Shown here piece by piece: positions 4,714 to 61,065 of a stretch of 64,000 bases of DNA. The notes beneath the pieces were generated by a model. The model did no database searches, was not told the origin of the DNA, and was given only the letters and a program-made list of their open reading frames with translations. Source of the stretch: a virus; IMG/VR virus record IMGVR_UViG_3300007511_000003, positions 62,001-126,000 of that record. One strand, given 5' to 3'. A program made the position numbers and the translations under genes. The stretch's first letter is position 1. Each line of letters opens with the position of its first letter.

Positions 4714-7700
4714 GACACGTCTCCATAGGGATTCCGACGACCAATAAAACGCTGTGCCATTCGTTGTCGGCGTTTGTTGTTGGGTTCCTTGGCAATCTCA
4801 CGGACCGCCTTGATTATCTTATCATTGATGGCTTTGTTGGCACGTGTTTGGTTGAACACGTGCCGTTTCTTGCCAGCTTTGTCGGTCGTAGACAACTCTG
4901 CGAGGTCTCCGAAATCCCTGTCCGTAAGGGTCTGGCGTTTGATAGACCGCAGACCAGAGAAGGAAAAATCATCGTCGTCCTCGTCATCACCTCCACCTTT
5001 AAGTTCCTTGATTCGGTCCTTAATCTCCGCGTCTTCCTCAAGGTCACTCATCAGGCTGTCAACAGATAGACCACCGGCAGCAGCCCACATCCGCAGAGGG
5101 ACCGGCACTCCCTTCTCGGTCAGGGTCTCCAATACTGTCAGGTACTCGGTGTCCGCCTCAGGCCGAAGGGCTTTATGCCAGTGCATGGTTGGAATAACCA
5201 GTTTACTGGTATCAGCCGTATACCACTGTACCATGTCGGTTGTCAACATAGGAGTTGTCCGACGGGCCGCCGACTCCTCAGGTGTCCTGTGTCGATAGTA
5301 AGGGTTAGGCTTTGGAGCATCCTCTTCCTTCTCAAAGCCATTGATAACCGAGATCAATGGAAACAGCTTGTTGTAAAACACCCTGTGGGTGGTCATGTCA
5401 CGGAACGCCCGCATGTGTTCAATAAACACTGACAACGCTACTTCCATCGTTCCATACGACATGTCTCCACTGTTATGTACCACGATACCGTTAGACACAA
5501 AGGCAGGTGCCACTTTGTGTTCCATGGTCAGGTCATACAAATGGGAAGTTCCAGCTGGTTTTACCTCCTGTACCGGGTCAAAGAAGTACTGGAGTTCAGA
5601 CAAGCGCACCAATCGTCTGACAACTACAGGATCAATTTGTTCCAGGATATCCAATAAATCGGAGTATAGACCTTTCTCAAAGTTAGAGTAGGGCAGGACT
5701 CCATCTCGATGTTTACCCTTCCCAACCGTTGATCCCAAGTATTTTGAGGTGCGGTGACCAAAGCCTTCAATTAAAACTGGTTGGCCTTCCGCATTTTCAA
5801 ACCACTCACCAACATTGGTTTCTCTGCGGATCCAACGGGATGCCAAGAAGTTTCGGATAGGTGGTATAGGTACCCCGAATGTACGTCCTTGTAAATCCGC
5901 TTCACGTACATCGTACTGGTTTTTTTCAGTATGGGCCAACCAAGGACGTAGACGCCTGTAAAATTTGTTCCCAAAATACCGAATAACACTTAACCATTTG
6001 GGGTGGTCAGTCATCCGAAAGCTGGGTACCCCGAGGTCCGCCAATAGTATCTGCATTTGGTCCAACAATTGGCCACTACTACTGCAAAAACGCAGAGCCA
6101 CAGTATCTTTCCTTTGGGCAACAGAGCCATCACCGTCAAGAAAAGCGGCAATGAAAGCCAATCGGCATTCCGTCGGGGCCTGAAGGATGGACCAAGGTAC
6201 TACTCTGTAGGCAGACGGATTGTTCACCTCGGATTTCCGTTTCTGTACGACCCCGAGTTCCTTCAACCAATGTACGACCTTTACCTCCTCGAAGGACATC
6301 TTGTAAACATCCGAATTGGAGGTACCCGTCACACCCTTAATGTTATACCTACGACCTTTCGGGCTACTTAAGGTCCGTTCAGGAACCACACCAAAAACAG
6401 AGGTAAAAGCCTCTTGGTATCGGTCAAGGACTCCCAGATTCGAATTCGTGATCGAAACCACGTTTTTCTTCTTAAGTGTGCCCTCAGACACGATAAGTCC
6501 TAACACATAGGCCAAATCGGGTGTCATTTCTGTCGGTTTGGTTGCAGCTTTTTGGGACCAACCTCCTTTAACCAGATAATCTGTGAGGTTCAGCCTCAGG
6601 GGTTCCGTCGCCTCCTGCCCCTGTGTGTCAATGCACAGGTAATCGGATTTTTGAAGGCGCTTCACAGGAACCCATTCCGGACGTAGGTCTTGTCCCAAAG
6701 TCAGTACCTCATGCTTCTTTGTTGTTGTGACATTATACCCGGATTGTGTAGTGGTTTTGACAACAGGTGATTTACCCCGGTACCACCAATGAATGGCTTT
6801 TGCAAACTCTCCAGAACGCCCCTTGACCAACAAATCTGTGGTGTACCCTTGGTCTTTACGTAGGCCCCTACGATCATACAATTGGTCAATAGGAATTAGG
6901 CCACGTTCCGTGTGAACATACGAGCCTTCCGCCAAACACAAAAAGCCCTCATTTATCCCAAGAGCCTGCATCTTGAGGTTGGAGGTCTCTGGAATAGTAT
7001 CCGTCCATTTCCAGGAGTCACCGCCGCTCCTGATTTCATTGGTATTCACATCATCACGTGTGGCAATCATGGCACCAACAGGATCTAAGTCCGCTTGTTG
7101 GAACAGGGCTACGATAGCCTTGAGCTCCTCATCCGTGGGTTCCCAATCCTCATCCCCTGCCACGATATGCAGGATCGACCGTTGCCTCTTTGCTGCCTCT
7201 GTCAGTGTACCCCTGTACAGGATCTTCTCCAGAAAGTAAATAGGCAGCAGCCGATGATACAACGAGGTACCACGATTGTTAAAGGTAAAGCTGCGCCTGG
7301 GTACATAAAGCGTGGTCAACGGATCGAGCGTCACCTCTGGGGCTCGCATGGCTCTCAGCATACCCGGGGACAGTCGTTCCTTCAGACGTTCGATGTGCGG
7401 TTCCCGGCTGTTGATGAACTCCTTCATGTCGGCCCCAATTTTCATCTTAATCAGAGGATCGGTGCCATACAAGGGAGTCGGAATCACAGTACAGTCGGCT
7501 ATGTTCTGTGGTATCAAATCAGTAAATAATTTCTCCGCCTTTTTAAACACGAGGGTGGATACGAAGGTGCCGAGCACGAGGTAATCTACACTCATTTCAG
7601 GCATTAGACTACGCATGTTCAGGCGGTCCAAATTGGACTCGAACACCTCCAGTTGCCTCTCATCGGCTCCGCTAAGAGTCCAATCACTGAAGGGTAGGGT

Positions 7701-50067: not shown

Positions 50068-50718
50068 ATGAAATTATTGACAGACGGGACAGATATAGTG
50101 GAAAAAGGAAGGATAAGGGTCATAGGGCATGACCCAGGATCACGTAATTATGCCTACTCAGTGGTGGATGCTCGTGTGTGGGGGCACCTATTCCAGTACA
50201 AGGTACGCAAGTGTGGCATCATAGAAAAGGCAATACCTGCCCTTAAAGATGACCTCAAGGAGGGTACCGTTCAATTTATTAAAGAGGTAGATGGTATAAT
50301 AGGAGACTTTAAACCTGTCAACTATTTCATCGCAGAGCGGTTCGTGAGTAGGGGGCTGCGTGGAGATATTGGGGAACGTGCCAATATCATGCTAGGCATC
50401 GCGCTAGCACTCACCACCAGAAAAAAGGTAGGTGTGGTGGAGACCCCCATGATTACCGCCTCCACCTGGAAGAACAGGACGAAAAAGATTTTGGACCTAA
50501 AAGAGTTATACAAGCAATGTCGGGTGCCACCACATGAGGTAGACGCTACGTTAATTGCCTTGTTTATAGCGTGCCAGCATTTTAAAATTAAACCCTATTC
50601 CTTCTTCAAGTCGGTAAAACATGTCCGAAAGTTTGTAGACAGGGTGGAGTCGGCTACAACCAGCAAACACCGCAACATACGACCAAAAAAATCTTTTGAC
50701 CAATGTTTTGTCCATTAA
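50068..50718 (+). CDS. RuvC-like Holliday junction resolvase
   Basis: 216 residues with an RNase H-like fold: VIGHDPGSRNYAYSVV (D22), FIAERF (E90), and VPPHEVDATLIALF (H156, D159) give the D-E-H-D active site of RuvC. It resolves recombination branches before packaging. The first of three overlapping plus-strand genes with their own terminator, set between two minus operons. Confidence 0.82.
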   Translation: MKLLTDGTDIVEKGRIRVIGHDPGSRNYAYSVVDARVWGHLFQYKVRKCGIIEKAIPALKDDLKEGTVQFIKEVDGIIGDFKPVNYFIAERFVSRGLRGDIGERANIMLGIALALTTRKKVGVVETPMITASTWKNRTKKILDLKELYKQCRVPPHEVDATLIALFIACQHFKIKPYSFFKSVKHVRKFVDRVESATTSKHRNIRPKKSFDQCFVH

Positions 50719-54634: not shown

Positions 54635-54722
54635 TGGAGCCAGGAACAGGATTCGAACCTGCGTTGGGTTTTCGCCGTCGGCTTACAAAGCCGCTCCTCT
54701 CGGCCGCTGGAGGGACCCTGGC
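54635..54722 (-). tRNA. tRNA, anticodon TGT (Thr) on a class-II-like body
   Basis: 88 nt with encoded CCA. Acceptor GCCAGGG/TCCTGGC pairs (one G-U), T-arm GCAGG-TTCGAAT-CCTGT, anticodon loop TTTGTAA giving TGT. The variable arm is long (17 nt with a GCG/CGC stem) and the D-arm text resembles bacterial tRNA-Tyr, so the charging identity is uncertain although the anticodon reads Thr. The first anticodon-stem pair is mismatched. Confidence 0.8.
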
Positions 54723-54825: not shown

Positions 54826-54933
54826 TGGCACGTAGTAGGAATCGAACCTACGATTCTCGCTTAAACGGTTGATCAGTCCGCTATCGGCGAGCACAGACTC
54901 TGCCTGCGCGTTTACCACTCCGCCATACGTGCC
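54826..54933 (-). tRNA. Anomalous 108-nt tRNA-like gene
   Basis: Perfect acceptor (GGCACGT/ACGTGCC, extendable to 8 bp) and T-arm (GTAGG-TTCGATT-CCTAC) and a Leu/Ser-like D-arm (GGCGGAGTGGTAAACG). Between them lie about 60 nt instead of 40. Two alternatives fit: a very long variable arm closed by CTCGC/GCGAG, or an extra hairpin (GGC-GAG/CTC-GCC) before an anticodon arm GCGGA-CTGATCA-ACCGT. No anticodon can be assigned safely. No CCA is encoded. Confidence 0.65.
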
Positions 54934-54939
54934 ACAAAG

Positions 54940-55200
54940 AAAATATGGTGTGCTATTACGCCAAAGAGGAGTTCACCCTTACCATCTCTGGGGTGGCTTA
55001 CTACTTCACCAAGTGGCGCCCGTCGCCTATCCCTCATAGCAGGTGGTCCTGCAGAGCTCTTTATTTGGATGCCGCCACCCAAACGTTAGCCTAGAGGTTT
55101 CCCTGGTTCATGCCCTTGCAATCCAGGTACGTACTACAACTAACGGCCTTTGCCTCACTCTTTAAAGGATGGCTGCTTCTAAGCCAACCTCCCATACCTT
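54940..55200 (-). ncRNA. Structured RNA containing the 23S rRNA GTPase-associated-centre (L11-binding) domain
   Basis: TTGGCTTAGAAGCAGCCATC (55168-55187) is identical to E. coli 23S rRNA around A1067. TTTAAAGA follows, and GGCGTAATAGC (54952-54962) matches the A1095 loop. In 23S these lie within 58 nt; here about 195 nt are inserted between them, entered by a stem AAAGAG(T)GAG / CTC-CTCTTT. The terminal helix is AAGGTATGG/CCATATTTT (9 bp), different from E. coli GCCAG/CTGGT but fully paired, so it is compensated. The insert has its own stems (CGTTAG/CTAACG, CCTGG/CCAGG, GGGTGGC/GCCACCC, GCAGG/CCTGC). It lies 6 nt from a tRNA and just after a protein gene. I read it as a ribosomal GAC mimic; function unknown. 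Confidence 0.8.
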
Positions 55201-55608: not shown

Positions 55609-55685
55609 TGGCTGGCCCTCCTGGATTCGAACCAGGGATACACAGAATCAAAATCTGTTGCCTTACCAAACTTGGCTAAGGGCCA
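55609..55685 (-). tRNA. tRNA-Gln (TTG)
   Basis: 77 nt with encoded CCA. Acceptor TGGCCCT/AGGGCCA, anticodon arm ACAGA-TTTTGAT-TCTGT (anticodon TTG), T-arm CCTGG-TTCGAAT-CCAGG. All stems pair fully. Confidence 0.93.
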
Positions 55686-59355: not shown

Positions 59356-59599
59356 GATTTTCCTCCTGATTGATTGTCGGGGTAGTACCCCTTGTTGGTT
59401 GGTGTTCTTGTGTTAATATCTCTTTACAGTCTGCCAAACAGTGGGAACAAATGCATACACGTTCTTCCTGTTTGGCGCCTTCTATGACCTGCATAGGGCC
59501 TAAAGCCACTTCCTTTGGAGGTCGTAACTCCATGCAAAAATGGCAACGAAAGGCACTCCATTTTAGTAACGACTTTTCTCCAGGAAGGATCTCTGTCAT
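59273..59599 (-). CDS. ClpX-zinc-finger-like small protein
   Basis: 108 residues. FRCHFCMELRPPKEVALGP followed by VCICSHCLADCKEIL reproduces the C4 zinc-binding domain of ClpX (CSFCGKSQ...VYICDECVDLCNDI), which binds adaptors such as SspB. No AAA+ domain follows, only a disordered polar tail. It might mimic or block the host ClpX N-domain. One-base overlap with the topoisomerase gene. Confidence 0.65.
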   Translation of the reverse strand: MTEILPGEKSLLKWSAFRCHFCMELRPPKEVALGPMQVIEGAKQEERVCICSHCLADCKEILTQEHQPTRGTTPTINQEENHGNEDQQESERGTGPAPTGSPEGTPSS

Positions 59600-61065
59600 T
59601 ACACCGTCACCTTGGCAAACTCGCGAAGGTCCTCCACCATTTTTGGGCGTGGGTCTTTAAGGTGGTATCGCAGATCATCCCTCTGTTTATTCAAATTATT
59701 AATGCGGGCCTCAAGGTCCTCGATATTCCAGCGGTGTAACTGCAGGATCTTAAACCCCAATATCTGGTCAGCCTCTTCCAAGGTAATACCCTCGAGGTGC
59801 TTAACCAAGTAATTGGCAGGCTCCTCATCATCCAAGGACTTCAATACCGTGTCTTTATTCAGGGACGCCAGCAGACGTAGTTCCAAGTCCCGTATCTTTT
59901 TATCCAGCACTCGTATTAGGTACCGCAAGCTACGACGTTCCTGTTTGAGCCTCCAAGCCACCCAGTTTTTCAGTAACTTGGGGATCGAGGTCCTACGGAA
60001 CCGGGCCCTCATCTTCCCAGTACTGGCATCGAATGACCTACTGACAATGTTGACGCGGAAGTCTAGTTTGGAATCAAAGTAGGACACCACCTCTTGGGAT
60101 AACGTAACAAAGCGTGAAGCCGCGGTCTTCTTCAAGAATACCGTATACCTTGGACCCGTCTCTAGGGAAGTCTCATCGTCTACAGAGGCAACGTAGGACA
60201 GCTCTCGTACTTTGGCAACCACTTTTCCGATATTCAGATTGGGTGCGAATCCGGTAAACGTGAGGGAAAGCTGGTGTTGGTTTACGTGATGGGGCGAGCT
60301 GAACCACACCCCACCTGTGCCCTGTTCGTAGAAAGCCCTTAGGTCTGCCAGACCTTCTTTGTCCAGGATGGCTTCCCCACCATATTTATACCGGAATTTC
60401 AGATGTTTAACACACTCGGCAACACCCACTGGTTCATCGTCCAATAAACGTTGGACCAATGTGATGAGACCCTTGAGCTCATAACTTGGTATGTGGGCGG
60501 TACCGCCCATTGCGATCCCGAAAGTACCATTCACCAAGATATTGGGGACTAGGGAGGGCAGCACTACAGGCTCCACCGCCTTTCCATCATACGTGGGCAT
60601 CTCCTCAAGGGTAGGTACGTAGTCAGGGTGGAAGAGACCCTTGTCTGCATATTTGGTGAGGCGACCCTCTGTGTACCGCATAGCAGCGGGCCCGTCTGTT
60701 AGCGAACCCCAGTTACCTTTACCATCGATGAGGGGCGTACTGAGGTTTGCCATGGTGACAGCGGCCCCATAGATAGCACTGTCACCATGTGGGTGGAACT
60801 TACCCATTGTATCACCAACAATCCTGGCGGCTTTCAAAACCCCGGCGTTATGGGTAAGCCCTAACTTGTGCATCGCCCAAAGGATGCGACGTTGGACTGG
60901 CTTGAGTCCATCTCGGAAGTCGGCAATTGCCCGGTCCTCCAAGGTGTACTTTCCATAGTCCATCATCGCCCCTCGGGCGTACTCCAATAAACCTACCTCT
61001 GGAACATGGGCAACACTCGCAGGGGCTTGGAGCGCGGGGTTAACTTTTCGTGTTCGTCGGCTCAT
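59599..61065 (-). CDS. Type II topoisomerase subunit, GyrA/T4 gp52-like
   Basis: 488 residues. DGLKPVQRRILWAM, KFHPHGDSAIYGAAV and DGPAAMRYTEGRL with catalytic Tyr131 are GyrA/ParC motifs. A coiled-coil follows and the protein ends without the beta-pinwheel C-terminal domain, as in T4 gp52. It cuts and rejoins double-stranded DNA together with an ATPase subunit not found in this window. Behind a strong sigma70 promoter. Confidence 0.92.
   Translation of the reverse strand: MSRRTRKVNPALQAPASVAHVPEVGLLEYARGAMMDYGKYTLEDRAIADFRDGLKPVQRRILWAMHKLGLTHNAGVLKAARIVGDTMGKFHPHGDSAIYGAAVTMANLSTPLIDGKGNWGSLTDGPAAMRYTEGRLTKYADKGLFHPDYVPTLEEMPTYDGKAVEPVVLPSLVPNILVNGTFGIAMGGTAHIPSYELKGLITLVQRLLDDEPVGVAECVKHLKFRYKYGGEAILDKEGLADLRAFYEQGTGGVWFSSPHHVNQHQLSLTFTGFAPNLNIGKVVAKVRELSYVASVDDETSLETGPRYTVFLKKTAASRFVTLSQEVVSYFDSKLDFRVNIVSRSFDASTGKMRARFRRTSIPKLLKNWVAWRLKQERRSLRYLIRVLDKKIRDLELRLLASLNKDTVLKSLDDEEPANYLVKHLEGITLEEADQILGFKILQLHRWNIEDLEARINNLNKQRDDLRYHLKDPRPKMVEDLREFAKVTV

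Follow-up and report, generated by a model that had tools for sequence, protein, structure and literature searches.

The GTPase-associated centre (GAC) of bacterial 23S rRNA is the binding domain of ribosomal protein L11 and comprises helices H42–H44 (nucleotides 1051–1108). In the known structure of this domain, G1071 and C1072 form base triples through which H43 docks on H44. Ribosomal recognition sites of this kind also occur off the ribosome: rRNA mimicry is established in the mRNA leaders of ribosomal proteins (Meyer 2018, cited in PMC10931766). The stringent factor RelA binds L11 and nucleotides 1051–1108 (PMC8801413), and its activation requires the L11 N-terminus (PMC4974054). GOLLD, a structured RNA of phage and prophage tRNA islands, combines a conserved with a variable region, and binding to ribosomes has been reported for it (PMC12286853). 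The locus described below belongs to a family of phage RNAs with the fold of the GAC; that the family and its fold are real is near certain.

Architecture of the locus

The window, a 64-kb stretch out of the 168.9-kb record of an uncultured virus, carries tRNAs and genes for a topoisomerase II subunit (59599–61065, minus strand) and a Holliday junction resolvase (50068–50718, plus strand). A search for a close cultured relative of this virus found none. A sequence-only reading of the DNA had placed both loops of the L11-binding domain here in the right order, and both are present, on the minus strand and in rRNA register. The minimal extent of the RNA, from P1 to P1′, is 55200–54940, a delimitation that draws on the sequence, the rRNA register and more than 150 related loci; all parts named below lie on the same strand. 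The 5′ half of the GAC (rRNA nucleotides 1056–1090) occupies 55157–55191 and includes H43 and the A1067 loop (55185–55171), with A1067 itself kept at 55180. The 3′ half (nucleotides 1091–1103) occupies 54949–54961. It includes the A1095 loop, GCGTAATAGC, at 54961–54952, where A1095 is 54957, and the family-diagnostic A1101 at 54951. Counted jointly in an ungapped alignment, nucleotides 1056–1104 are identical to Escherichia coli rrlB at 44 of 49 positions.

The two halves are closed by a terminal helix, P1, whose 5′ strand (55192–55200; nucleotides 1047–1055) forms 9 bp with its 3′ strand (54940–54948; nucleotides 1104–1112). The strands of this outer helix agree with rrlB at 3 of 24 positions, which is chance level, and they still pair, just as the same reading had described. 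Its proposed insertion of about 195 nt with stems of its own measures 195 nt (55156–54962) and interrupts the GAC exactly between nucleotides 1090 and 1091 of H44. The insert opens with a short helix, P2, formed by GAGG, its first nucleotides (55153–55156), and CCTC (54966–54969); it ends in a UUUG linker (54962–54965). Inside P2 lies a variable structured arm, or payload (54970–55152), which contains the hairpin P3 (54975–54997; GCC-ACC-CCA-GAGA-UGG-UAAG-GGU).

A permissive Rfam search recognized the first half alone as LSU rRNA (54 nt aligned; 21.8 bits against a gathering score of 50) and gave no match to the L10 leader in the window. No further part of 23S rRNA adjoins the GAC of the window, which sets it apart from bacterial LSU rRNA (RF02541). 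The RNA stands between a tRNA-Gln upstream (55612–55685) and a tRNA-Thr downstream (54638–54722), both on its own strand. After a gap of 7 nt it is followed on that strand by a tRNA-like gene (54827–54932), which is matched by the Rfam tRNA model at 43.7 bits and not by ARAGORN. The middle 49 nt of this gene are unmodelled; it is either a tRNA with an unusually long arm or a tRNA with an insertion.

A family of split RNAs in large phages

More than 150 diverged loci have the split GAC design. Nearly all belong to large phages, of which about 20 are named and in culture, and none of the loci carries an RNA annotation. IMG/VR was searched for exact copies of a 15-mer of H43. Among the matches listed, almost none were ordinary rRNA and some were protein-coding coincidences; most of those listed read GGNNGUNGGCUUAGAAGCAGCC...UUUAAAGAGU, followed by unrelated sequence and, 90–380 nt on, by GCGUAAYAGC. 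Searches of annotated phages found the GAC RNA in Pseudomonas phages Astolliot, UNO-G1W1, Milchi and pf16, Aeromonas phage 4_4572, Cronobacter phage GAP32, Pectobacterium phage CBB, Serratia phage BF, seven Erwinia phages, and Xanthomonas phages XacN1 and XbC2. Xanthomonas phage XaC1, Acinetobacter phage ME3 and Vibrio phage 2.275.O carry it as judged by similarity only. In the phage records inspected, the RNA lies in a gap devoid of RNA annotation and commonly adjoins tRNAs. A second search approached the RNA from its opposite end, used a pattern clear of the A1067 loop and added more loci; after dereplication 92 members were left.

The near identity of the core could suggest a fragment of host 23S rRNA, be it an intervening sequence, an assembly chimera or a piece that was captured, and true rRNA fragments do occur in phage records. 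One such record, that of Paenibacillus phage Pd_22F (MZ092003.1), holds an ordinary stretch of 23S rRNA including the sarcin–ricin loop, which is probably host sequence in the record. For the split RNAs this origin is scarcely credible. Their outer helix is unrelated to rRNA and covaries, and cultured phages have the same interrupted design. A strict interrupted pattern has 80 viral matches against six in bacterial and archaeal genomes totalling 257 Gb, and two of the six (L135 and L136) read as ordinary rRNA variants. In two genomes, G001 and G004, the interrupted copy and an ordinary rRNA GAC lie on separate contigs. No host 23S rRNA carrying this insertion was found; with compensated homologues in hand, the original proposal of a GAC-mimicking phage RNA rather than a piece of host rRNA is supported. 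An rRNA intervening sequence or intron was rejected for the window because its GAC is flanked by tRNAs and phage genes and does not lie inside a host rRNA gene.

Diverged members have in common the split at 1090/1091, P2, the linker (UUUG in 68 and UUUA in 7 of 83 dereplicated members) and A1101. The last of these, a U in rRNA, is present in 100 of 104 members and pairs with U1090 in 79 of 83. Because these derived features are common to the members, the comparison points to what would be one old phage family of single origin, and not to repeated capture of host rRNA.

Some forms depart from the usual plan. One contig (L063) carries two different GAC RNAs in tandem, at positions 5137 and 5455; the first is of a shifted type (UUAAUCAGC), and a similar form is seen in L038, L068 and L238. 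A viral contig (L016, position 3723) has an apparently arm-free GAC with a non-rRNA closing helix, TGCTAGTAA/TTACTAGCA, which would be a minimal form.

Fold and covariation

The lone window sequence folds no better than shuffled sequences (z −0.95), and it is the comparison of members that supports the fold. All column pairs of a 73-column core were ranked across 83 dereplicated members with a G statistic and APC. The 12 strongest (scores 55–142, against maxima of 17–22 in the column-shuffled null) are expected GAC pairs: those of P1 (1047–1055/1104–1112), 1058–1080, 1057–1081 and the tertiary pair 1082–1086. The tertiary pair co-changes as UA in 48, CG in 24, AU in 5 and other combinations in 6 of the 83. 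Across the same members, 90.4% of P1 cells are paired, compared with 51% after shuffling and 35–48% when the partners are slid by 1–3 nt; five core and tertiary pairs reach 96.6%, compared with 76% in shuffles. Of the 83 members, 83, 81 and 75 form the first, second and third pairs of P2, respectively (shuffle 51.5, 49.6 and 34.9). Within H43, compensated changes are seen in the second set: 1064–1074 goes from CG to AU four times, and 1062–1076 from GC to UA or AU, also four times. The homologues with compensatory changes on which the sequence-only reading had staked its case therefore exist, for the outer helix, 1057–1081, 1058–1080, the tertiary pair 1082–1086 and the closing helix of the insert. 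The pairs that define the fold of the L11-binding domain, 1057–1058/1080–1081, 1087–1102 and P1, are all found in rRNA register.

Unpaired positions are conserved as well. U1083, A1084, A1085 and A1088, all in the tertiary core, are invariant (104/104). In a set chosen without reference to them, U1060, G1063, G1071 and C1072 are present in 92 of 92 members and G1059 in 91; U1066 is also nearly invariant in the set chosen without the A1067 loop. The tip of H43 is looser in that set, with A1067 in 75, G1068 in 72, A1069 in 86 and A1070 in 78 of 92. These four positions thus vary in 7–22% of phage members, and they read AGAA in 20 of 20 sampled rRNAs. A strict factor site for GTPases and thiostrepton, meaning A1067 together with the neighbouring loop bases, is not kept across the phage set. 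In the other loop, A1095 is kept in 101 and A1098 in all of 104 members, and position 1096 is G in 19 of 104. Since the core is near-invariant and 1067–1070 are varied, the fold that L11 binds is kept more strictly than the surface that faces thiostrepton and the elongation factors. The phage RNA lacks the L10/L12 site of H42, since its P1 spans about 9 bp and has no fixed sequence.

These patterns bear on the main rival to the capture of L11, in which the RNA is a decoy for ligands that touch the GAC at its factor-facing tips. Candidate ligands are RelA, the translational GTPases, inhibitors resembling thiopeptides and a defence toxin that attacks ribosomes. Both loops are there, with A1095 and A1098 conserved as just described, and RelA contacts nucleotides 1051–1108. 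The relaxed tip weakens such a decoy, and a form presenting A1067 to GTPases or thiopeptides in particular, because 1067–1070 vary; so do the G at 1096 and the missing L10 site. A search of the payloads for a second mimic of a factor site, the sarcin–ricin loop, gave chance-level similarity overall. The decoy is therefore considered unlikely.

Another view takes the GAC as a mere self-folding, sturdy scaffold that presents the variable arm and binds no ribosomal protein. The conserved portion is indeed the tertiary core, and the arm is elaborate. Such a scaffold would not need a copy of an rRNA protein site, yet rRNA letters are kept at many unpaired positions, and a correct GAC fold is expected to meet L11 in the cell. 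This view too is doubtful.

The variable arm

The insert ranges from 49 to 350 nt among members and differs widely in sequence; helices covary within subfamilies. In the subfamily of the window (23 members) the arm ends in P3, a GNRA-capped hairpin of the form NNC-ACC-CCn-GNRA-nGG-UAAG-GNN; for its second outer pair, canonical pairing is seen in 21 of 21 against 10.6 expected by shuffling. Another subfamily, of 22–24 members, is marked by the conserved internal loop GUGCGAAAUG/UGAUGUG, the flanks of which covary in part. In about 10 members H43 holds a second insert. Folding payloads one sequence at a time produced structures that were inconsistent.

Mimicry of other parts of rRNA or tRNA by the payloads was rejected, their 80 short matches to E. 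coli rRNA comparing with 74–100 in shuffles. Five payloads (L046, L092, L234, L242 and L346) contain a hairpin UAGUAC-NNNN-GGA. It was considered as a mimic of the sarcin–ricin loop and rejected as such: the 13-mer UAGUACGAGAGGA is exact in only two, and the tetraloop varies in the others. In all five, UAGUAC has its complement in a GUACUA further upstream, so a long-range helix would explain this strand better than sarcin–ricin mimicry. For the hairpin as a whole, a pseudoknot, a switch and a mimic are candidates.

Genomic setting

A tRNA lies within 500 nt of the RNA in 66 of 108 loci, and in all 66 the nearest tRNA is on the same strand. It lies within 50 nt in 43 of the 108, and in 27 loci a downstream tRNA starts no more than 10 nt from P1. 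Judged from these same-strand arrays, the RNA is probably expressed as a non-coding RNA; the arrangement also fits release of the RNA from a tRNA precursor by tRNA-processing enzymes. A promoter search ahead of the RNA returned nothing above chance.

The setting also speaks to a role in cis, either as a leader that regulates its own transcript by rRNA mimicry or as a target at the DNA level such as a homing-endonuclease site. Mimicry of this type has its precedent in ribosomal protein leaders, and homing endonuclease genes are near some loci. A leader should precede a ribosomal protein gene, and none follows the element: its neighbours are tRNAs and unrelated small genes, and it sits between tRNAs in both orders, the nearest being upstream in 30 and downstream in 36 of the 66 loci. 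Covariation at the RNA level and a helix of free sequence do not fit a DNA target. A role in cis is accordingly very improbable.

Among the neighbours, no recurrent protein family was found except homing endonucleases. An L11 homologue was found in none of 54 phage records with the RNA, in a search whose controls were positive in 14 of 14 genomes. An L11 of the phage's own and a conserved partner gene were both sought as counterparts of the RNA, and neither was found. A clear bL12 domain is present in only one of the 54 records, a 316-kb phage (G108) with a bL12 C-terminal domain at 292735–292932; six other records have weaker, partial L12 matches.

Proposed capture of host L11

The most likely constant activity of the RNA is capture of host uL11, to which a probability of about 0.5 is assigned. 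The steps envisaged are as follows. (i) A stable non-coding phage RNA would be transcribed and processed along with the phage tRNAs. (ii) Its constant part, closed by a helix of free sequence, folds as the L11-binding domain of 23S rRNA, and a structured variable arm leaves H44 at 1090/1091 via P2 and the UUUG linker. (iii) The constant part is predicted to bind host uL11 during infection. (iv) Captured L11 would be depleted from ribosomes or from factor-dependent processes, RelA activation being the best documented of the L11 functions that could be lost; alternatively, L11 would be an anchor that tethers the arm for a second task. Binding of uL11 is proposed because selection keeps the fold that L11 recognizes, in phages that encode no L11 themselves and in which the RNA has no accompanying partner gene. 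The use made of the capture, depletion or tethering, is less certain.

Several points stand against capture. The insert in H44 could in principle hinder L11. Free L11 is scarce in cells, where most of it sits on ribosomes, so an L11 sponge would need high RNA levels or exchange. Capture alone leaves the varied payload unexplained, and the lone window RNA is not unusually stable. A bolder version, in which this copy of a ribosomal centre strips or shields uL11, so that cells become functionally relaxed with RelA not activated, and the arm supplies a second activity specific to a host or a defence, is a long shot.

A virus RNA that keeps the tertiary structure of a functional centre of the ribosome is undescribed in Rfam 15 and the literature searched. 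The statement of the sequence-only reading that no phage RNA of this type had been described holds within that range, which took in only a minority of subscription journals and bioRxiv preprints; a prior report is possible. The RNA is common in large phages and has been overlooked in annotation. Its cultured carriers pf16, GAP32, CBB, Astolliot and Aeromonas phage 4_4572 are open to immediate test. Capture of L11 would connect phage tRNA arrays with this protein and possibly with the stringent response. The covariation is, in addition, independent evidence from nature on the GAC bases that are required for the fold once the ribosome's own work is taken away. Because an RNA of tRNA arrays keeps the exact GAC fold and adds a variable arm, the family suggests that viruses make a look-alike of the ribosome to capture host translation components.

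Comparison with known systems

The bacterial GAC and the phage RNA agree in their secondary and tertiary pairs, register included. Unlike the bacterial domain, the phage RNA is free-standing, is split at 1090/1091 by 49–350 nt, has A1101 for U and is closed by a short, unrelated P1 that lacks the L10 site; its tip at 1067–1070 is less conserved. GOLLD and ROOL are likewise phage or prophage RNAs of unknown function encoded near tRNA islands. The GAC RNA is much shorter than these and carries an rRNA domain, and the Rfam models of GOLLD and ROOL matched neither the window stretch at E up to 10 nor any of 11 related loci at E up to 0.5. RNAs C and D of phage T4 are small stable RNAs, also of unknown function, encoded where a phage tRNA cluster ends; as members of the family they were rejected, neither having a GAC sequence. 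Phage-encoded ribosomal proteins (bL12, bS21; PMC6375957) are another case of a translation component, connected with the stalk region, that comes from a phage. The GAC element, unlike them, is an RNA, and it rarely shares a record with bL12. In ribosomal protein leaders (the uL1 site of the L11–L1 operon and the L10 leader), rRNA mimicry binds a ribosomal protein; the GAC RNA differs in being viral, in its place in tRNA arrays and in having no ribosomal protein gene downstream. By analogy, it would work like these rRNA-mimic regulatory RNAs, presenting an rRNA protein site off the ribosome.
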